From a virus, in the IMG/VR virus record IMGVR_UViG_3300006923_000088, positions 1 to 30,528 of that record: DNA of 30,528 nucleotides; one strand, written 5' to 3'. Shown here one piece after another: positions 8,798 through 30,528 of this stretch (position 1 is its first letter; the number at the start of each line of letters is the position of its first letter). Position numbers and translations under genes: made by a program. A model generated the notes under the pieces. That model saw nothing but the letters and a program-made list of their open reading frames with translations. It was not told the origin of the DNA and searched no databases.

Positions 8798-10422
8798 TAC
8801 GTACCTCCCATCATTTGTTGTACTTGTTGGGACATCTCTGGATTGGCATCAATAATCTCTTGAATACCTTCACCACCCGTAGCTTCCATATCCTGAGCAG
8901 CAGCTTGTCCCATAGCATTAGTAACCATCTGTCCCATACCCTGTTTCATCTGTCCTTGAGTAGCTATCTGTTGTTGAGCTTCTGCAAGTTCCATCTGTTG
9001 TTGTTTAGCTTCTTCTTCGGATTTAACCCAGTTATTGGCATCGAATCCTACCGAAGTAACTAAAGCACGAGCGTATGATTCCCATTTGAATAACGCAAGA
9101 GCAGGTTCAGGAAGATTCCTTACCATCTCTCCCATCTGCATTAGTTTTTGTAAGTCAGAATCTCTACTTAGAGCCTGTAGTCCTGTGACTATCTCTACAC
9201 TAAGGATACCATCAGAAGCAAACTGTTCCTCTAATCTAGGATCTATCTCACCATTTTGTAACATAAGAAAAGTAACTCTATTAACTACAGGTTCCATAAG
9301 ATCTCTAGATATAGCAGAGAATGCTCCACCAAGTACCGTCTCTAGTTCTGAGCCAATCATACGTACCGCTGTAGCAGTCACACGATCTCCACTAGGTATA
9401 GCGGATCCTGTTAATAGAAAAGCATTACCTATCTCTCGTCTCATAGTTTCAACACCTGACTGTGTAGCTTGAATCTGAGGTGACATAGTTCCGGAAGGAC
9501 TCAATGTAAATATATCTTGTTCTCTAGCTGAGACAAACTCACCGTTCTCTGCACCCGCAATATCATCTAGTTCTGTAATACCTGCGGGGTCTACTCCAAT
9601 CCAGAAGGCGGAGGCTGCTGCCACCCCTTCGGTAAGAGCTTCTGTAAAGGACTCTAAGGTTTGTATATCACCTATGATATCCTCACAATGTGATCGACCA
9701 TAGTTCTCACCTGTAATGGAAGCCCAACGTAAAGGAATAAACGGAGATACTTCATACTCTCCTTCATTTTTAAGATTTCCTTCGCCATCCTCAGCTACCA
9801 ATGCCCATGTATCATCTTCGTTACGTGTAACTCTAATGTATTGAACCTCGTATCCCTTGCGGCTGTCGGCTGTATAGTTGTATTGTCCAGATGTAAAGAT
9901 ATCTTCCTCGTTGTCGTCTGAGATAAACTCAAGGTAGATGATCTCTTGAACTTCTCCCTCGACATTTCTCCTGACAACGTATTGATCTAATCGAATGACT
10001 CTAAAGTTTAAAGAATCTTCTACGATTACTAGAGCGTCTCCTACTACAATCAAGTGCTGTAGTGTAGTATAGATAGTTTCTCTTAAGTTTCTACTCGATA
10101 GTTTATTATGTACTTGATATGAAAGAGATTCCAAGAAGTTCCAGATCTCTTGATTAGGTTCCATTCCTGATTGTAGTTCGAACCTAAAGAATGGTGTATC
10201 ATTTAAAGGTAGCATAGCCGATAGAATCCTACTAGCCATATTGGTTACACCTCTAGCTGGTACCGAGCTGTAAGGCTGAGATAGTTGTACCTCTTCGTTC
10301 CATCCCTCTGGTGGAAGTAGCGAAGGTATCGTAAGTGATGAACACTTCCTTGCTCTCTCTAGCTTCATTAGACGTTGTTCATTTAAGAACTTCCATCGTT
10401 CAGCGTTTGTTTCCTTAGACAT
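8797..10422 (-). CDS. Portal (head-tail connector) protein, T7 gp8-like
   Basis: 541 aa, almost the size of T7 gp8 (536 aa), the dodecameric channel for DNA entry. Typical gp8 features appear in order: the N-terminal R...LNEQRLMKLERARKCSSLTIP...LPPEG, the segment QPYSSVPARGVTNMASRILSA ('qp~qs~Ga~avn~LasklllaLfP'), LNDTPFFRF, the ALVIVEDSL strand, and SGDRVTATAVRMIGSELE ('eR~TAtEi~~~~~e~~~~lG~'), followed by MEPVVNRV. The C-terminal 80 residues are Gln/Met-rich and helical (QQQMELAEAQQQIATQGQ), which fits the barrel. Starts with ATG at 10422 after AAGGAG. Confidence 0.95.
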   Translation of the reverse strand: MSKETNAERWKFLNEQRLMKLERARKCSSLTIPSLLPPEGWNEEVQLSQPYSSVPARGVTNMASRILSAMLPLNDTPFFRFELQSGMEPNQEIWNFLESLSYQVHNKLSSRNLRETIYTTLQHLIVVGDALVIVEDSLNFRVIRLDQYVVRRNVEGEVQEIIYLEFISDDNEEDIFTSGQYNYTADSRKGYEVQYIRVTRNEDDTWALVAEDGEGNLKNEGEYEVSPFIPLRWASITGENYGRSHCEDIIGDIQTLESFTEALTEGVAAASAFWIGVDPAGITELDDIAGAENGEFVSAREQDIFTLSPSGTMSPQIQATQSGVETMRREIGNAFLLTGSAIPSGDRVTATAVRMIGSELETVLGGAFSAISRDLMEPVVNRVTFLMLQNGEIDPRLEEQFASDGILSVEIVTGLQALSRDSDLQKLMQMGEMVRNLPEPALALFKWESYARALVTSVGFDANNWVKSEEEAKQQQMELAEAQQQIATQGQMKQGMGQMVTNAMGQAAAQDMEATGGEGIQEIIDANPEMSQQVQQMMGGT

Positions 10423-22891: not shown

Positions 22892-23178
22892 TTTACATGT
22901 CTCCGCTTGAACGCTTGTTTCCATTGAACAGATACAGAGGGTAAATCCATCCTCTTACTAGTTTCTTCCAAGGGATACGCTTCCTTGAACTGTCCTTTGT
23001 TATCCATTTTATGTACCCACTTAATTTTATAGCTCTCAGTAGGCTCGTAAAGATCAATCTCTCCTCGTATATGAGCCCTTTGAAGTTCATTAAGAGTATC
23101 ATAATCCTTACCACGGCAGTCAAACCTACGTCCATTAAGTTGACTACCTGGATTCTTCTTATACCATTCTTCTAACAC
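22888..23178 (-). CDS. 96-aa basic hypothetical protein next to ParB-like 2
   Basis: Starts with GTG at 23178, AAGGAG eight bases upstream, overlapping the ParB-like gene by seven bases. The product begins MLEEWYKKNPGSQLNGRRFD, has LNELQRAHIRGEIDLYEP in the middle and ends basic (WKQAFKRRHVK). A conserved-looking Trp pair and basic tail hint at nucleic-acid binding. No family known to me. Context: sandwiched between ParB-like 2 and the metallophosphoesterase with stop-start overlaps on both sides, so all three are probably made together. Confidence 0.7.
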   Translation of the reverse strand: MLEEWYKKNPGSQLNGRRFDCRGKDYDTLNELQRAHIRGEIDLYEPTESYKIKWVHKMDNKGQFKEAYPLEETSKRMDLPSVSVQWKQAFKRRHVK

Positions 23179-23657
23179 TGATTCTTCTCCTTATATTCTC
23201 TTGTTGAGTTAATAGGATCCTGTATCCTAGCAGCAGATACCATGTCATTCTCTTTAAGTATGACACAATCAATACTCGTATACCCAAGCTGCTCAGCCAC
23301 ATGATATCTATTGTTGCCTGTAAAGACAGCCATCTGTACATCCTTTGACTCCCAGTCAATGGGATGTCGATACAACCACATAGCAAAGTTCCCTTCCCAA
23401 CGGTCAGTTAATTCTTTAGTTATAGGTATGACAACCACAGGATTAATCATACCTTTCTCTTTAATATCATTCTTTAATGGATCAAAGAAGTCCTCTCCTT
23501 CGACTCCATACTTTTCATTCTTTGTTTTCTCAACCAGAGGAAAGAAAGTCCACAGATCTTTAAGATCTAGTTGAACAACCTTTAGGTCATTCCACACCTC
23601 ATACTCACTGTAGAGATTTCCTTCTTCTTTTGGTAGGATTCTTCTTCTTAAGAACAT
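23172..23657 (-). CDS. ParB-like (ParB/Srx-fold) protein, copy 2
   Basis: 161 aa. ATG 23657 with GGAGG eight bases upstream. The fold signature is LKNDIKEKGMINPVVVIPIT (~residues 60-80), and FTGNNRYHVAEQLGYTSIDC (~113-132), matching 'G~~R~~~a~~lg~~~i~~~v~' of ParB domains. The same 'IDC-V/I-L' ending occurs in ParB-like 1 (HIDCIVL versus SIDCVIL), so the two may be diverged paralogues or a shared subfamily. The N-terminal 50 residues differ. No helix-turn-helix domain. Grouped with the small unknown gene and the metallophosphoesterase. Confidence 0.75.
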   Translation of the reverse strand: MFLRRRILPKEEGNLYSEYEVWNDLKVVQLDLKDLWTFFPLVEKTKNEKYGVEGEDFFDPLKNDIKEKGMINPVVVIPITKELTDRWEGNFAMWLYRHPIDWESKDVQMAVFTGNNRYHVAEQLGYTSIDCVILKENDMVSAARIQDPINSTREYKEKNQC

Positions 23658-24127: not shown

Positions 24128-26581
24128 TCAGGTGAATAAATAATCCGACTCAAGAACTCCTCTGATATCGAGTCCCCCTCTGGTTGGCAGCTTTGGCAAC
24201 TGCAACCCGAGGTCTGTTTCGACATCCTCGCAGAACTTCTCGAGCAAGTTTTCCTTGTGCATTTCATAAAATTCTTCTCTAATAAACTCTCTTAACATTC
24301 CCATGTCTGGAGCAGGACACCCAAAGGAATCGTGCACCATTGAGAACTGATATAACCCATTAGTTAGGGCTCTATATAAAGTACAAAACATATGACTAGC
24401 ATCTAAACTATGAATCCAATTAGGAGATATAGCTTGCTCTACTGCCTTAGGGTCTATGTCTGTACTACTATGAGAAGCAAAGATTAATTCCTTACGATTA
24501 AACAAGGTAGCAAAGCTTCTTCTTTTGGTAGGTTTCTGATAAGCATGGACAACAGTAAACCCTGAGGGTACCGTGTATTTTATATGCTCGTTAAGGTTAC
24601 TGACGATGTTGGCTACCTTCTTAAGATAAGCCTTACCTGCATTGGGCAACTCTAGAGATTCCTCTAGCCCTGCCTTAATTGCACGGGATAGTTCTGTTAT
24701 CCCCCCACCCTGTCTATCCTTATCTAGCCAATCAAGATGCCCCTCTATCTTCACATACTTTTGTATACCATAGAAAGTAAGACCGTATGCATCACACATT
24801 GTAGATCTCTTAGTAACATCTCTATTTATATTACCATCCCAGTGGTCTAACATCTCTCCTAATATAGGTAGATCATCTTTATTTAATTCACAATACTTAG
24901 TAACCCTATTAGCGATGTGCCCATATAAATCTTTTGGTATATCATTAGGTGATACATTGGTTAAAGACCCTATCACCTCATCTCTCATGACTGCTGACCA
25001 ATGTTGTGAGCCATTACATGCTCCATCTAATTGGACACCAACCTGTGTCATACCATCTGTACGACAGAGATCAAAGATAGCCGCAAGTCTTTGGAACGAG
25101 GGATTCTTTTTCTTCTTATCGCTTACCCATTCCTTATTATCATAGGGGTTATCATTAATTCTTTGTAGCATCTCCATATTATCCTCAGTCCACTTGACCC
25201 TATCATCTAAAGATACTTTATCTTGGTCAAATAGATTAGCAACATGGATCTTTGACCACCGTAATCCTTCTTCTGTTTGTACCCTTGGTTCTGCAAACAT
25301 GATGAGACTCTTATCGAAGTCAGACCCTTGACATGACAGTAATTCACACGTACTGTATGCCCTACCTCTAAAGTCTAGGGTATAAGGCATGTACCAGAAG
25401 TCATGCTTCGCCATATCCTTAGCTAACATAAGCCTAATAAGTAGTCTGCATCTCTTCTGTTCTCCTTTGAACCATTCAGCCCACTCTTGTTCTCTCCGTA
25501 CACACCACTTAGCCTTCTCTTCTTTAGTACCCTTACTCGGATACTCTTCATTAAAATCAAAAGAGTCGGACGAGTATGCGGGTAGGTTGGCTAACTGGGT
25601 GTTGTTATAGAACAGAGTCTCCATAACTTCCAAGACCTTAGTGTTAACTGCCCACTCGGTATTCATCATAGCATTCAGACCATCTAACACTAACTGACTA
25701 GGCTTAGACCATTGTTGTTTATGGCGGAAGCCAGTAAAGTAATCCGAAGAATACTTCTGTACCACTTCCTTCCGTATCCAATGGTTGTAGTAGCCCCCAC
25801 TACGTTCTATAGTGTGATCTACTGGTGGTACAATCATAGGTCTATATAGTAATACCGTAGTCTCTAATAACTTATGCTTATTATGGAGATCTTTTAGTAT
25901 CTCAGGATTTAATGTAATGAATAACTTTTGTTTCCATATCTTACCCATTAAATGCCTCTGATTTATAGACTGTAAGATGTCTGAAGCCTCTGCTATCCTT
26001 ATCATATGATGTCCAAAGTCTTGTCGTCTCTTTAAGGTAAAGAACTTCATGTTCCCTACCTTCTTAGCAAACGCATTACATCTCTTTGGTGTCCAGTTCT
26101 TAATAAACTTAGACTGTCTTCTCCAATCATCCTTAAACTCTTCCTTGGATTGTTGGTACGCCACTATGTTTAAGACCTCTGTTGATATAACATTGGCTAA
26201 TCTCTGTGCAGTGGGCAAAGGATATGCTGAGTTCATGTATCCTATGAACTCTTCTTCGAACATTGATGACCTCAGCCACTCCCTTAAGAAACATCTGATA
26301 GTTAAATCAGCCATCTTAGAAGCACCTATGGATAACAGGGGAATCACCCATTCAGGTGTCCTGAGTCCACTACACATTTTATCTATCCACTCTTGATAGA
26401 ATGGGGTAAGATGTATTACAACAGAATCTAACAACTGTTGCTCTGGTATCCCCTCATCCGGAGCACGTTCGTACTCTCTCCAGTATTTAGTGATACCACT
26501 AGACATCATGCCCTCTTCTAGGACATTCTGCTCTAGTATTCTTTTCTGCTGTTCTTCGGGTGTTAACCTATTCCAAAGCAT
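24128..26581 (-). CDS. Single-subunit DNA-directed RNA polymerase, T7 gp1-like
   Basis: 817 aa (T7 883), shorter mainly in the N-terminal domain. Catalytic residues equivalent to T7 Asp537, Lys631, Tyr639 and Asp812 are all present: QLDGACNGSQHWSAVMRDE (Asp519), VTKRSTMCDAYG (Lys591, Tyr599), MVHDSFG (Asp751). The C-terminal end LESDYLFT corresponds to the T7 'ESDFAFA' foot. The specificity-loop region lies between QKPTKRRSFATLFN and SPNWIHSLDASHM; its core (NRKELIFASHSSTDID) differs fully from T7, so promoters will not be T7-like. ATG 26581 has GGAG seven bases upstream. The repeated 18-bp element lies just upstream of the gene, suggesting self-transcription. It defines this phage as Autographivirus-type. 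Confidence 0.98.
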   Translation of the reverse strand: MLWNRLTPEEQQKRILEQNVLEEGMMSSGITKYWREYERAPDEGIPEQQLLDSVVIHLTPFYQEWIDKMCSGLRTPEWVIPLLSIGASKMADLTIRCFLREWLRSSMFEEEFIGYMNSAYPLPTAQRLANVISTEVLNIVAYQQSKEEFKDDWRRQSKFIKNWTPKRCNAFAKKVGNMKFFTLKRRQDFGHHMIRIAEASDILQSINQRHLMGKIWKQKLFITLNPEILKDLHNKHKLLETTVLLYRPMIVPPVDHTIERSGGYYNHWIRKEVVQKYSSDYFTGFRHKQQWSKPSQLVLDGLNAMMNTEWAVNTKVLEVMETLFYNNTQLANLPAYSSDSFDFNEEYPSKGTKEEKAKWCVRREQEWAEWFKGEQKRCRLLIRLMLAKDMAKHDFWYMPYTLDFRGRAYSTCELLSCQGSDFDKSLIMFAEPRVQTEEGLRWSKIHVANLFDQDKVSLDDRVKWTEDNMEMLQRINDNPYDNKEWVSDKKKKNPSFQRLAAIFDLCRTDGMTQVGVQLDGACNGSQHWSAVMRDEVIGSLTNVSPNDIPKDLYGHIANRVTKYCELNKDDLPILGEMLDHWDGNINRDVTKRSTMCDAYGLTFYGIQKYVKIEGHLDWLDKDRQGGGITELSRAIKAGLEESLELPNAGKAYLKKVANIVSNLNEHIKYTVPSGFTVVHAYQKPTKRRSFATLFNRKELIFASHSSTDIDPKAVEQAISPNWIHSLDASHMFCTLYRALTNGLYQFSMVHDSFGCPAPDMGMLREFIREEFYEMHKENLLEKFCEDVETDLGLQLPKLPTRGGLDIRGVLESDYLFT

Positions 26582-26640: not shown

Positions 26641-27660
26641 TTAACAGTATTCTAACGCTCTCTTCATAACAGTGATAGAATTAGATGCGTTCTTACCAAA
26701 CAGGTTGTTATCAACCCTAGAATCAGAGCTAGTCTTACGACCCTTCTTGCTTTCATTAAACTGCAGGTAATTAGTTACAGCGTTCGCTGCAATCCAAGCA
26801 TTAGGTCTATTAACATTCAACTCTTGCATCTCATTATCAAATGTAGTACTCCATGTACTAATAGACGCTACTGCTCTCTTGTAAATCTTCTCATCCTCAT
26901 CAGACTTAAAGTTACTAGGTAAGACAACAGTTTCTTTATTCAAATCTTGGTATACATCTAACCAGAATCTTTGGATTTGTTCTTTATCCCAATCAGTAGC
27001 CACTAGTCGGCTAACATTATCCTTAAAGAATCTTCCTGTTTCTCTAAAGAAACTCAATGCTTCTGTTGCCTGAGATAGTTTATCTTGCATATCTCCTTGG
27101 TGTGTAAACCTAAACATATTCTTTGATCCATTAGCCATAGCCATATGTAAGGTGTTAGCACAGACAACCCGTATGCTAGTAGGCAATCCAGATAGAGTCA
27201 TTGAACCATCGTGTCCGTTACACAATAACATATACTGGTCAACCATATCATTTGATTGAGCCATGAATGAATCACACTTAACTAAACAATAGATTCTTCC
27301 ACCATTCCTTAGTGAACCAAACGATTCAACTACGGTATCCTCTCCGCCCAAACTGTAAGCCAACTCTGCCAACTCAGCATTCTGTACTACATTATAACTA
27401 GGACTAACCCAGCCAACAACATCTCCAGTATCTTGGCGGATGTTAGCAACCTTCTTACTTGTATACGTAACATCTACTAAACCCTCAGCAGTCTTATAGG
27501 TACAGCCGATCTCACTACTAGGTACTACATTCCAATCAAGGTGTGCTTCACGCAACGCCTGTCTAGGATTGCAATCCTCATTTACTACGACACCTAAACC
27601 GTGCCACGCTTTTTCTTTTCGATACATTGCTGTATCATTTTCAAACATTTCTGAACTCAT
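26641..27660 (-). CDS. DUF932 / phage-plasmid-like protein (TIGR03299 type)
   Basis: 339 aa. Opening pattern MYRKEKAWHGLGVVV is the family hallmark ('~~~~~aWh~lG~~v'), followed by VGWVSPSYNVVQNAELAEL ('lg~V~~~Y~~vqn~eaf~f'), and then SLRNGGRIYCLVKCD and DGSMTLSGLPTSIRVVCANT ('hDGs~a~~~~~t~iRVVCaNTl'). The family is common on plasmids, phages and mobile elements; biochemical function is unclear to me. ATG 27660 overlaps the previous stop by four bases with AAGGAG upstream. It is the last gene before the polymerase and so likely expressed early from a host-recognised promoter. Confidence 0.88.
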   Translation of the reverse strand: MSSEMFENDTAMYRKEKAWHGLGVVVNEDCNPRQALREAHLDWNVVPSSEIGCTYKTAEGLVDVTYTSKKVANIRQDTGDVVGWVSPSYNVVQNAELAELAYSLGGEDTVVESFGSLRNGGRIYCLVKCDSFMAQSNDMVDQYMLLCNGHDGSMTLSGLPTSIRVVCANTLHMAMANGSKNMFRFTHQGDMQDKLSQATEALSFFRETGRFFKDNVSRLVATDWDKEQIQRFWLDVYQDLNKETVVLPSNFKSDEDEKIYKRAVASISTWSTTFDNEMQELNVNRPNAWIAANAVTNYLQFNESKKGRKTSSDSRVDNNLFGKNASNSITVMKRALEYC

Positions 27661-27932
27661 TTGTTCTCCTTAATTTTTTCTATCATTTTTCTAACTTCTA
27701 TCTTTTCATCCTCAGTAAGATTACCCAAGGCTAAGTCCCACCTTAAATCATACTCTTCCTTAGAGATATCACTAGTTCTCCTAGTGTCTCCTTTACCCGC
27801 TTGGTTATTTTTGTTATGATTAAATGGTGTCCATTTATCCTTATTAGTTTTCCACCTACCAGAAGATACGCCATCTCCCTTGTTTTTATTCAAATGTCTT
27901 TGCATATCTCTATTGATTTCTGCTTCTTCCAT
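27657..27932 (-). CDS. 91-aa basic hypothetical protein with GKGD motif
   Basis: ATG at 27932, AAGGA six to seven bases upstream, ending in an ATGA overlap with DUF932. The product is hydrophilic and basic in its first half (HLNKNKGDGVSSGRWKTNKD), then carries QAGKGDTRRTSDISKEEYDL followed by RWDLALG. This 'GKGDx-R ... Yd-~W~~i~g' block recurs in small phage proteins of unknown role. It is the first gene after a 77-bp intergenic gap with a direct repeat, so it may head the DUF932 transcript. Confidence 0.75.
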   Translation of the reverse strand: MEEAEINRDMQRHLNKNKGDGVSSGRWKTNKDKWTPFNHNKNNQAGKGDTRRTSDISKEEYDLRWDLALGNLTEDEKIEVRKMIEKIKENK

Positions 27933-28009: not shown

Positions 28010-28348
28010 TCATACTTCATTTACCTCATAGGTTGCTTCGAAGCAACCATATCCACGATGATCGTATTCAATGTGTGATAGTTCTGCCATCCAATCACAT
28101 TCATACTCTCCATAATCATCGTCTTGTCTGTAACATCCTTGTACTCTTGTAAATATCACACTCTCAATATCTACAGGATATTTCACCACAATTTCTTGAG
28201 TTGTTAAGGATAATCTTAGATCTTTATCAGTATATTTTCCATCGCCCCACTCATAGTACCCTATACCCTGATCTTCTACCTGAAACTCACACTCTGTCTC
28301 TACTATATCACGGATATCATCTTCATCTACGTATTGTATGTCTATCAT
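28010..28348 (-). CDS. 112-aa acidic early hypothetical protein
   Basis: ATG 28348 lies in an ATGA overlap with the upstream gene, with GAGGAG upstream. Very acidic and Tyr-rich, no lysine-rich part: MIDIQYVDEDDIRDIVETEC, QDDDYGEYECDWMAELSHIE. Strand-rich layout with FEATYEVNEV at the end. Small acidic early proteins of T7-like phages often inhibit host enzymes (for example by mimicking DNA), which is possible here but not shown by any motif. It ends just before the gap with direct repeats. Confidence 0.7.
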   Translation of the reverse strand: MIDIQYVDEDDIRDIVETECEFQVEDQGIGYYEWGDGKYTDKDLRLSLTTQEIVVKYPVDIESVIFTRVQGCYRQDDDYGEYECDWMAELSHIEYDHRGYGCFEATYEVNEV

Positions 28349-28689
28349 CCTTCACTCCTCTCAGACTTATTAAGGTTAGAACCGTACTGCTCCGCCATAG
28401 CACGTTCCTTACCTTCACGTCCCTCACCAGACTCAAGGTAACAATCTACTGGGAACGAAGGTACGTCTAGTATTACCTTAAGATTAGATAACTGCTTCGT
28501 TACTGCCTTGTCTACAAGAGTATCTATCTTCTCATTCACATGCCGAAGAATCACACCTTCGAGTTCCTTTTGGATTGTCTCGAACTGTTTAGTTATCTCG
28601 GCATCGGATGCCAAGCGTACTATCTCCTCTATCTCCTGCTCCATCTCACTAATTACTTCACTGGTGTCTACATCTACTGATATATACAT
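28345..28689 (-). CDS. 114-aa coiled-coil early hypothetical protein
   Basis: ATG 28689 overlaps the previous stop (TAATG). Residues ~10-70 are one long helical region (EMEQEIEEIVRLASDAEITK, FETIQKELEGVILRHVNEKI), likely a coiled coil that oligomerises. The remainder contains PVDCYLESGEGREGKERAM. No family recognised. Confidence 0.7.
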   Translation of the reverse strand: MYISVDVDTSEVISEMEQEIEEIVRLASDAEITKQFETIQKELEGVILRHVNEKIDTLVDKAVTKQLSNLKVILDVPSFPVDCYLESGEGREGKERAMAEQYGSNLNKSERSEG

Positions 28690-28865
28690 TACTTATATTC
28701 CTTTACTTGGTAGGGTGTATCACCCTTTTTCCTCATTGAGTTAAAGTCATCAGCATCTTGCTGTGCTTGTCGTTTGAATTGGTAAATACTAGGCTTACCA
28801 TCTTCTTCGATCCACCACTTACCATCAATTATGATGCCCCATTGCTTTGGTTTATCCTTCTTCAT
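28689..28865 (-). CDS. 58-aa basic early protein
   Basis: ATG at 28865 in an ATGA overlap with the gene before it and stop in a TAATG overlap with the gene after it; this double coupling supports a gene of only 58 codons. Product: MKKDKPKQWGIIIDGKWWIE, then a helix FKRQAQQDADDFNSMRKKGD and basic end. Lys-rich and Trp-rich, beta-hairpin then helix; function unknown. Confidence 0.7.
   Translation of the reverse strand: MKKDKPKQWGIIIDGKWWIEEDGKPSIYQFKRQAQQDADDFNSMRKKGDTPYQVKEYK
28712..28726 (+). terminator. Possible antisense (plus-strand) terminator inside a minus-strand gene
   Basis: Plus strand AGGGTG-TAT-CACCCT followed at once by TTTTCC: a six-base stem, three-base loop and short T run. 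It lies within the 58-aa gene. It would stop plus-strand (antisense) transcripts. Since it also encodes conserved amino acids, chance is plausible. Confidence 0.25.
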
Positions 28866-29074
28866 TTTCCCATCTCCATCAATATAGCAGAGAGTGTACC
28901 TATATTAGCATTCACCATCTCTATATGGTATCGTTCGCCCCATACTTCACCACCATGAAAGCATCGGATGCAATCATGGATAGCATTCTTAAGTCTACGA
29001 TCCCGCATGTCTGCAGGTTTTGACATCAGTAACTCTAGTGCTGTGTCTATTATGTGTAAGTCTTGGCTTGTCAT
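28862..29074 (-). CDS. 70-aa early hypothetical protein
   Basis: ATG 29074 with GGAG eight bases upstream, overlapping the previous gene by four bases. Helical protein: MTSQDLHIIDTALELLMSKP, then RLKNAIHDCIRCFHGGEVWG, and a C-terminal helix. The His/Cys cluster HDCIRCFH could bind a metal but lacks a clear zinc-finger spacing. No family recognised. Confidence 0.7.
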   Translation of the reverse strand: MTSQDLHIIDTALELLMSKPADMRDRRLKNAIHDCIRCFHGGEVWGERYHIEMVNANIGTLSAILMEMGK

Positions 29075-29337
29075 GTCTTTCTCTCCTTAAATACATCATC
29101 ACAAATCTCTCGGAATTGTTCTGATACCCACTGCCAGTCCAAATCATTGAACCGACCAGCAATCTCAGCCCACTCATCATCAGTAACCTGTAAGTCAGGT
29201 GTTTCTGGATCATCAGTATAATCATTGATAGCCCAGTTAGCCTCATCACGTCCAAACCATATAACAGCAAGTTCGTTATGGGGGTTCTCCTTCAAGAACT
29301 TTACCATCTGATCATACATCCAGTTGTTTGTAGTCAT
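29071..29337 (-). CDS. 88-aa acidic, Trp-rich early hypothetical protein
   Basis: Start chosen at ATG 29337 (AAGGAG seven bases upstream); a longer reading to 29412 would be out of frame through the CxxC gene. Product starts MTTNNWMYDQMVKFLKENPH and carries DLQVTDDEWAEIAGRFNDLD ('lt~eEW~~i~~~~~~~d'), followed by WQWVSEQFREICDDV. Strongly acidic. A host-takeover role is typical for this location, without specific evidence. Confidence 0.72.
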   Translation of the reverse strand: MTTNNWMYDQMVKFLKENPHNELAVIWFGRDEANWAINDYTDDPETPDLQVTDDEWAEIAGRFNDLDWQWVSEQFREICDDVFKERKT

Positions 29338-29455
29338 CTTCAATCTCCTTTTCCATTTCCTCATCGCATTCGGTACAGTAATAATCATCGTCAAGGCGAA
29401 CCATGAAATCAACCGACTCCATCTCTCCGCACCTGTCGCATAGTTTATGTATCAT
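29312..29455 (-). CDS. 47-aa zinc-ribbon-like early protein
   Basis: Start at ATG 29455, which reads MIHKLCDRCGEMESVDFMVR and on through a second pair, YYCTECDEEME. Cys6/Cys9 and Cys27/Cys30 form a CxxC-x17-CxxC zinc ribbon of the rubredoxin-knuckle type. An upstream reading to 29527 is out-of-frame through the previous gene. Such mini zinc ribbons bind proteins or nucleic acid. Acidic C-terminus. Overlaps neighbours on both sides. Confidence 0.72.
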   Translation of the reverse strand: MIHKLCDRCGEMESVDFMVRLDDDYYCTECDEEMEKEIEDDYKQLDV

Positions 29456-29579
29456 CTTCAACAATCTCCCAATGCTGGAGAACCACATCAAGTGCTTCTT
29501 GCTCTGCTTCTTCAAATGTTTCTGCATCTATTGTAAACTCCATCACAGATGGGTCAATAATTATTTTATAAATCATCAT
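29445..29579 (-). CDS. 44-aa acidic early protein
   Basis: ATG 29579 (next codon is also ATG) has AAGGA upstream and an ATGA overlap with the preceding gene. Product MMIYKIIIDPSVMEFTIDAE, then TFEEAEQEALDVVLQHWEI. The strand-then-'a~t~eEAe~~A~~~' layout is that of small DpnD/PcfM-like domains that phages and plasmids encode often; the match is by layout only. Confidence 0.65.
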   Translation of the reverse strand: MMIYKIIIDPSVMEFTIDAETFEEAEQEALDVVLQHWEIVEDDT

Positions 29580-29719
29580 CCAGTTCCTTGTACTTGCATC
29601 ATAGTATTAAGTTTTCTTTCGATCTCTTGTAGTTGAGTACTAAACTCACGGTTCAGTATACCCCTAGCATACATATCAAGAGCCTCACGTAGTATGATTA
29701 GTTCTTCAATCGTTAGCAT
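29576..29719 (-). CDS. 47-aa helical early protein
   Basis: ATG 29719, AGGAGG seven to eight bases upstream, inside the end of the previous gene (14-base overlap). Product MLTIEELIILREALDMYARG, then a second helix FSTQLQEIERKLNTMMQVQ: a two-helix hairpin. Stop overlaps the next start. No family recognised. Confidence 0.68.
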   Translation of the reverse strand: MLTIEELIILREALDMYARGILNREFSTQLQEIERKLNTMMQVQGTG

Positions 29720-30032
29720 CCTTTGCCTCCTGTTCACGTTTCAGTAGCCATTGTATATCAGCCCGTTCATTCTCTATTAGTTCAACGTCTTGATGATCAT
29801 CTAGTTCATCGTACCTATACTCTTGGTCTTGCCATCCAGTATAGTCTATGTCATAGGGCACAGTGGTATCGTCAAGATACTTCTCTAATGCGTCTTCAGG
29901 TGAGTCAGCCTCATAGATATGCATACCTGATTCCCATATGGTACTTGTTATAGTAACAGGTACACCATAGAACTTTCTATCACTCTTAATTATTTCCTCA
30001 GGGATTACATTCCCATTCATATCATGTCGCAT
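29706..30032 (-). CDS. 108-aa acidic early hypothetical protein
   Basis: ATG 30032 with AGGAG six bases upstream. The middle EADSPEDALEKYLDD is again an 'eA~s~eeAl~~~' helix after a strand (VPVTITSTIWESGMHIYE), and the C-terminal half is very acidic and aromatic (YTGWQDQEYRYDELDD). It shares the strand-helix plan with the 44-aa protein. No catalytic motif. Confidence 0.72.
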   Translation of the reverse strand: MRHDMNGNVIPEEIIKSDRKFYGVPVTITSTIWESGMHIYEADSPEDALEKYLDDTTVPYDIDYTGWQDQEYRYDELDDHQDVELIENERADIQWLLKREQEAKDAND

Positions 30033-30387
30033 TGGATTCTCCTAGTCTGTTGATCCAGTATTTCTTTTCGTCAGCATGTGTCCATATGTGTCCAGCAACT
30101 CGTATTTCCCAGTACTCGTCATCTTCGGGTGGTATCCAGTAGTTAGGTGTACCATAAGCATTACCCCAAGGGTCATCAGGTGGCTCGACTTCATCAAGTG
30201 ATGTCTCACCTTCACAGGTACAACACCAATCCATACTAAAGTCTTCCACACAATCCACAAACGCTAAGTCATTGTTAGGATCGAACCAAGCAGATGCCAT
30301 AGATTGTACATCACTGCTACCACACTCACTACATACCCACTGTGGTTTATAGTTACTGTAAGGGTTCATTGGATTCTGATTATTCAT
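30022..30387 (-). CDS. 121-aa zinc-binding early hypothetical protein
   Basis: Start chosen at ATG 30387 (six bases after AGGAG); an ATG two codons earlier abuts the ribosome site. Product: MNNQNPMNPYSNYKPQWVCS, with two Cys pairs, CSEC and CCTC about 36 residues apart, a probable zinc ribbon. Later: EVEPPDDPWGNAYGTPNYW, Trp- and Pro-rich. Acidic overall. Function unknown; zinc ribbons plus acidic character suggest protein or nucleic-acid binding. Confidence 0.72.
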   Translation of the reverse strand: MNNQNPMNPYSNYKPQWVCSECGSSDVQSMASAWFDPNNDLAFVDCVEDFSMDWCCTCEGETSLDEVEPPDDPWGNAYGTPNYWIPPEDDEYWEIRVAGHIWTHADEKKYWINRLGESNAT

Positions 30388-30528
30388 CTTCATCTCCTAT
30401 AAAAGTTATAGTTACCTTCGCTACCCTTCCCCCAGAGTATTCGATATCAACAGGGTAACAGCCATCTCCATAGCCACTATTGATAAGCATACCTATACCC
30501 TCACCTAAGGGTGTTTGTACTGTCGCAT
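30380..30528 (-). CDS. C-terminal fragment of an early protein with GDGxYPV motif (cut by right edge)
   Basis: Only the last 48 residues are in the window, ending at TAA 30380-30382 with an eight-base overlap onto the next start. It reads TPLGEGIGMLINSGYGDGCY then PVDIEYSGGRVAKVTITFIG. The 'SGyGDG-YPV~~~~~~g~v~~~~i~F' ending is seen in DUF4241-like and similar small beta proteins. Too little remains for a firm call. Confidence 0.6.
   Translation of the reverse strand, partial: ATVQTPLGEGIGMLINSGYGDGCYPVDIEYSGGRVAKVTITFIGDEDE

Follow-up and report, generated by a model that had tools for sequence, protein, structure and literature searches.

A cassette of small overlapping genes between two single-subunit RNA polymerase genes in a 68-kb phage genome

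Virus record IMGVR_UViG_3300006923_000088 comprises 30,528 bases, and the whole record is the window of this study. Between positions 28010 and 30528, its minus strand carries a cassette of 11 small open reading frames (ORFs), g1 to g11, with an overlap of 1-26 bases at each of the 10 junctions. A preliminary description, made from the letters alone, had reported eleven mostly acidic genes in this region, nearly all overlapping, and named it as the likeliest place for new proteins directed against the host or its defences. We found that all eleven genes are present in this marine-type phage, that the cassette is a zone of gene exchange between related phages, and that, unexpectedly, a complete phage RNA polymerase gene lies on either side of it. 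The cassette itself is of a known kind; more unusual is its setting with two polymerases.

Gene organization

The genes form a tightly packed run. Gene g1 (28010..28348, 112 amino acids (aa)) overlaps g2 (28345..28689, 114 aa) by 4 nucleotides (nt), and g2 overlaps g3 (28689..28865, 58 aa) by 1 nt. Overlaps of 4 nt join g3 to g4 (28862..29074, 70 aa) and g4 to g5 (29071..29337, 88 aa), followed by overlaps of 26 nt between g5 and g6 (29312..29455, 47 aa), 11 nt between g6 and g7 (29445..29579, 44 aa), 4 nt between g7 and g8 (29576..29719, 47 aa), 14 nt between g8 and g9 (29706..30032, 108 aa), 11 nt between g9 and g10 (30022..30393, 123 aa), and 14 nt between g10 and g11 (30380..30528). Each of g1 to g10 has an ATG start inside the window and a ribosome site. 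In the case of g11, the end of the record leaves only the C-terminal 48 aa; the full gene, found in a longer contig (G001, positions 23676-23404), has 90-93 aa.

To judge the chain as a whole, we counted ATG-initiated ORFs of 43 aa or longer that have a ribosome site and compared them with 500 dinucleotide shuffles. The minus strand has ten such ORFs, all in one chain, and the opposite strand has one. The shuffles gave a mean of 0.32 and a maximum of 3 qualifying ORFs, and their longest chain was 2. An independent gene caller based on codon usage and ribosome sites returned the same cassette genes. For the three genes with close enough relatives, the ratio of nonsynonymous to synonymous substitution rates (dN/dS) was 0.16 (g1), 0.25 (g2, with synonymous change saturated), and 0.35 (g10); these three genes are under purifying selection. 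The support for g3 to g9 consists of layout, ribosome sites, and codon use. In the collections searched, relatives of these genes were absent from all other phages, and one might suspect that the ORFs of 44-58 aa are not genes. With a chain of ten against two at most in the shuffles, and with all of these short ORFs picked by the codon-based caller, we regard this suspicion as very improbable. The four genes of 44, 47, 47, and 58 aa had been proposed on the strength of ribosome sites and stop-start overlaps. The further claim that they are missed by common length cut-offs holds for coarse filters of 60-100 aa and fails for standard phage gene callers, because these take ORFs from about 30 aa.

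The proteins are mostly acidic, as had been stated: with g11 taken at full length, 8 of the 11 have a net charge below -0.1 per residue, while the 31 proteins of at least 150 aa from the same genome have a median of -0.031 and a minimum of -0.085. The acidic members include g5, g6, g7, g9, and g10, as well as g1, which has a net charge of -22 and a DxGIGxYE motif; g3 is basic. The two zinc-ribbon-like proteins of the earlier account were also recovered, with CxxC...CxxC pairs in g6 and g10. The Cys spacing of g6 (CxxC-x17-CxxC) fits the TIGR04272 domain, but the match (19.4 bits) is below the NCBIfam cut-off of 36. In g10, the four paired Cys residues are kept in the sole relative (in G002, 83-84% identical). 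Gene g2 is coiled-coil-like, with a 42% identical relative in G003, and g8 has a strong ribosome site at an inner ATG. Gene g11 belongs to PHROG 5209, a family of unknown function (expectation value (E) 1e-9 for the fragment and 1e-23 for the full gene).

Family searches with the other genes were negative. No Pfam match above the curated cut-off and no significant PHROG match was found for g1 to g10, and g1, g2, g4, g5, g6, g9, and g10 gave neither an NCBIfam match above the cut-off nor a convincing PADLOC match; some anti-defence families are absent from the Pfam, NCBIfam, and PADLOC libraries. Weak matches of g2 to coiled-coil models and Tus, of g5 to RNase H (E 0.07) and SspC, and of g9 to DUF6573 were judged to be due to chance. 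Among 2.9 million viral contigs, g5 was seen in this phage alone. Searches of 50,697 phage records with the DNA of the cassette and 25 kb of the window gave no match, nor did tblastn with g10, g1, and one g1 relative. The g1 family is too divergent for a pattern scan, and the model of g1, the most acidic conserved gene, was poor (nine sequences, predicted local distance difference test score (pLDDT) 53). As regards DNA mimics of the Ocr or ArdA type, which have an acidic surface laid out like B-DNA, the feature observed in g1 is thus its very acidic composition.

The longer contig G001 (68,335 bases) matches the window at 100% identity, and a 55-base overlap between its ends closes the genome at 68.28 kb. 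Upstream of g11, G001 has four further small overlapping genes (59, 74, 69, and 115 aa), preceded by a leader of about 0.9 kb (G001 24.6-25.55 kb) without a called gene. On the 3' side of g1, a gap of 77 bases is followed on the same strand by a gene of 91 aa (27657..27932), a gene of 339 aa for a DUF932/TIGR03299 protein (26641..27660; Pfam E 1e-33, TIGR03299 E 9e-48), and a gene of 817 aa for a single-subunit RNA polymerase, designated RNAP-B (24128..26581; PHROG 414, E 2e-148). The 91-aa gene belongs to a conserved core adjoining the cassette and has 40% identical relatives in the L020 and L023 groups. Counting the 11 genes, the four upstream, and the 91-aa gene, the run of small genes is about 16 long. 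An AlphaFold model of the DUF932 protein (pLDDT 76) had no informative fold match in the PDB.

Among the genes outside the window, gene 13 (G001 24059-23835) has CxxC pairs. It weakly resembles the restriction-alleviation protein Lar (PF14354), with a score of 17.8 bits that is below the Pfam cut-off of 28.6; the relative in G002 has no match. The leader contains four AATCTAAG elements in about 400 bases (G001 ~24809-25206, minus strand), with matching arms of the form GGGG(T/A)G...CTACTGC(C/T)CCC; one further copy lies elsewhere on that genome strand, and no known element matched.

Two RNA polymerase genes and promoter-like repeats

Upstream of the leader, outside the window, lies a second gene for a single-subunit RNA polymerase, RNAP-A (700 aa; minus strand, G001 28180-26078, corresponding to L011:5045-7147; PF00940 E 3e-49, PHROG 414 E 3e-98). 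The two polymerases share 26% identity, and in RNAP-A the aligned catalytic residues (Asp, Lys, Tyr, and His-Asp), which we take to correspond to the T7 catalytic positions, are kept. RNAP-A is also found in G005/G006/G015 and G016; the copies in G007 and G013 are truncated or more divergent. It was not found in G002, G009, and G011, and is thus itself accessory. In tblastn searches of the 50,697 phage records, one polymerase matched at 2,601 places in 2,583 records and the other at 2,552 places in 2,544 records, that is, almost one per record, which indicates that two such polymerases in one phage are rare. Upstream of RNAP-A (L011 ~9618-10060, G001 ~30651-31093), we noted two 55-base direct repeats, 85% identical, each of which contains a long hairpin with arms of 28-29 bases.

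A 17-base repeat, AGAATCCTACCAAAAGA, recurs around these genes. Its sense-strand copies in G001 lie at 29203 and 29149, upstream of RNAP-A, and at 25877, between RNAP-A and the cassette. In the window, an exact copy on the minus strand (23626..23642, G001 16666) lies about 0.5 kb after RNAP-B, and a copy with one mismatch (24521..24537, G001 17561), also on the minus strand, lies inside the RNAP-B gene. With up to three mismatches allowed, about 0.2 matches per strand are expected by chance. The exact copy in the window falls in the start region of a gene for a ParB-like protein of 161 aa (23172-23657). Two tandem copies fall within a 69-aa ORF at G001 29227-29018, which for this reason was not accepted as a gene.

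Related phages have other versions of the repeat. The sister L037 has a different one, CTAGTTCTACCAAAGGG, with exactly three copies at the three corresponding upstream places (2624, 2682, and 6381). In L023 (positions 850 and 8478), a similar version occurs just after an RNAP-A fragment and 502 bases after RNAP-B. In a more distant clade, the repeat takes an unrelated form, GTTGGGGCTACTGATAGG, with one copy in the cassette and another following RNAP-B; further sites include L027 6860 and 13956. We found no antisense copies in these relatives. Overall, the repeats are 13-18 bases long, strand-specific, and lineage-specific, and they recur at constant positions around the cassette and RNAP-B. 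Constant positions combined with sequences that differ from lineage to lineage would be expected of promoters for a co-evolving phage polymerase, and for this reason the repeats are probably phage promoters.

Exchange of genes between related phages

The region including RNAP-B, DUF932, and the 91-aa gene is 99.73% identical over 15.27 kb between G003 and G001. Within g1 the identity drops to 95%, and g2 retains 27-67%. Gene g1 of G003 is 91% identical. The exchange boundary lies between g1 and g2. The phage of G002 is a different one, whose matching terminase and capsid DNA is 70-74% identical; at the protein level, its gene 14 is 97%, gene 13 58%, and g10 83-84% identical, and g11 and gene 12 are absent between the shared genes. 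With its sharp boundary and gene-by-gene swapping, the cassette is an exchange zone.

Some features of the slot are constant. DUF932, whole or as a fragment, lies upstream of RNAP-B in all 21 of the relatives' loci that hold that stretch, and the slot upstream of DUF932 and RNAP-B always contains small genes, mostly different ones. Many relatives have a g1-like gene with the DxGIGxYE motif close to DUF932; the other small genes differ or come and go singly, with their order partly conserved. Gene g1 shows about 30% identity to the genes in the same slot of the sister group L020/L022/L024/L037 (E about 1e-4). The link of g1 to this nearest sister group is fair, and that to the farther group is only suggestive. 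We rejected a single-linkage family that joined g2 with a coiled-coil gene from distant relatives, as there was no direct match and the gene order was reversed.

In some relatives, elements of other kinds lie in or near the cassette. Genes for tRNAs (Lys, Ile, Arg, Leu, and Glu) occur among the small genes in the more distant relatives L027, L031, L038, L043, L032, and L028; this phage has none. Pistol self-cleaving ribozymes with scores above the gathering score were found in non-coding stretches upstream of the cassette at L037:6601-6662 (42.9 bits), L027:2677-2753 (60.0 bits), and L040:6409-6485 (51.7 bits), and a search for them in this phage found none.

Discussion

We consider it reasonably probable that the run of about 16 genes is an accessory island, transcribed as one polycistronic operon into DUF932 and RNAP-B, and that most of its products act on the host. 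The operon would most likely be read as a single message from the leader, from a phage-type promoter, or from both, and its expression would be early or early-middle. During the first part of infection, the products would then inhibit enzymes of the host, redirect them, or block a defence, as products of the corresponding regions do in T7-like phages. The best candidates for binding host proteins would be the acidic and the zinc-ribbon-like members. Single genes are gained, lost, and swapped between related phages. In exchange pattern, gene size, and position, the cassette is like the takeover regions of T7-like phages (PMC10134795), and a host-directed function is probable from position, size, and turnover. 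The chain of ten genes and the strong acidity relative to the rest of the genome also speak for this reading. Several observations weigh against this interpretation. Sigma-70-like sites are at chance level, and the Lar-like match of gene 13 is weak. In the libraries searched, none of the cassette genes could be placed in an anti-host or anti-defence family. The relatives' cassettes are less acidic, so that acidity does not characterize the slot in general. The earlier expectation of anti-host or anti-defence genes stands as a statement about a good place to look, and is not borne out by a match to a known inhibitor or anti-defence family.

The same neighbourhood could be read differently. In many relatives, g1, the 91-aa gene, and DUF932 keep their place beside RNAP-B even though the remaining small genes vary, and a lineage-specific promoter-like repeat flanks the block of cassette and polymerase. 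These conserved members could be cofactors or regulators of the phage polymerases or of replication, like gp1 and gp2 of N4, which assist its second polymerase. The middle polymerase of N4 requires phage cofactors from early genes (PMC4496689). Action on the host would then be confined to the variable remainder, if it occurs at all. We think this unlikely, since none of the three could be linked to a known cofactor by sequence or fold and the variable genes g3 to g10 are left unexplained. Alternatively, the presence and absence of single genes and the failure to detect relatives of g3 to g9 might mean that the small genes are mostly passengers, which drift by recombination, have no important target, and are kept because DNA space allows it. 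This seems quite improbable: the genes overlap, pack efficiently, and are purged of pseudogenes, the dN/dS values of the three testable genes are low, and the shared zinc-ribbon Cys residues are kept.

How transcription is divided between two full T7-type polymerases, and whether takeover genes need the host polymerase at all, are questions on which this setting bears. It is possible, though on the unlikely side, that RNAP-A comes first and uses the 17-base repeats upstream of its own gene and of the cassette to transcribe both the cassette and RNAP-B, after which RNAP-B transcribes the rest. If this cascade is true, the cassette would be a takeover operon transcribed by the phage, working even after the host polymerase has been shut off. 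Small genes that near-identical phages exchange are a good hunting ground for new inhibitors of host enzymes and defences. The shortlist comprises g1, which is kept in its slot, and g10, gene 13, and gene 14, which are mobile with their sequence or Cys pairs kept; the rest are private to this phage.

Comparison with known systems

Gene 13 shares CxxC pairs with Lar and differs from it in its sub-threshold score (17.8 against 28.6 bits). At the level of the locus, there are two known systems for comparison. Published T7-like phages have hypothetical takeover genes at this place (PMC10134795), and the preliminary description had compared the place of the cassette with that in T7-like phages. The likeness to T7 genes 0.3-0.7 and to LUZ100 holds for small unassigned genes on the same strand upstream of a single-subunit RNA polymerase and for variable gene content, with turnover among close relatives. 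It does not extend to the genome, which is about 40 kb with one phage polymerase in those phages and 68.28 kb with a second complete polymerase gene upstream here. A phage-promoter-like repeat lies between RNAP-A and the cassette in this phage. The T7-like early region is transcribed first, by the host polymerase from sigma-70-type promoters; here, sigma-70-like sites are at chance level.

N4-like phages, which have several polymerases, are the known analogue of the two-polymerase setting (PMC4496689, PMC11705849), and literature searches for phages with two single-subunit polymerases gave only such cases and no closer description. This phage shares with the N4-like phages (Schitoviridae) a genome of about 70 kb, more than one T7-type polymerase, small genes nearby, and a giant protein. 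The giant protein here has 3,804 aa (G001 44042-32628, minus strand); its sole PHROG match is weak and of unknown function, and it is probably a virion protein, judged by its position. When it was searched as two overlapping pieces, no match to a virion RNA polymerase PHROG, a feature of N4, was found. The polymerases differ as well: N4 has a gp15/gp16 heterodimer, whereas RNAP-A is a single chain of 700 aa.

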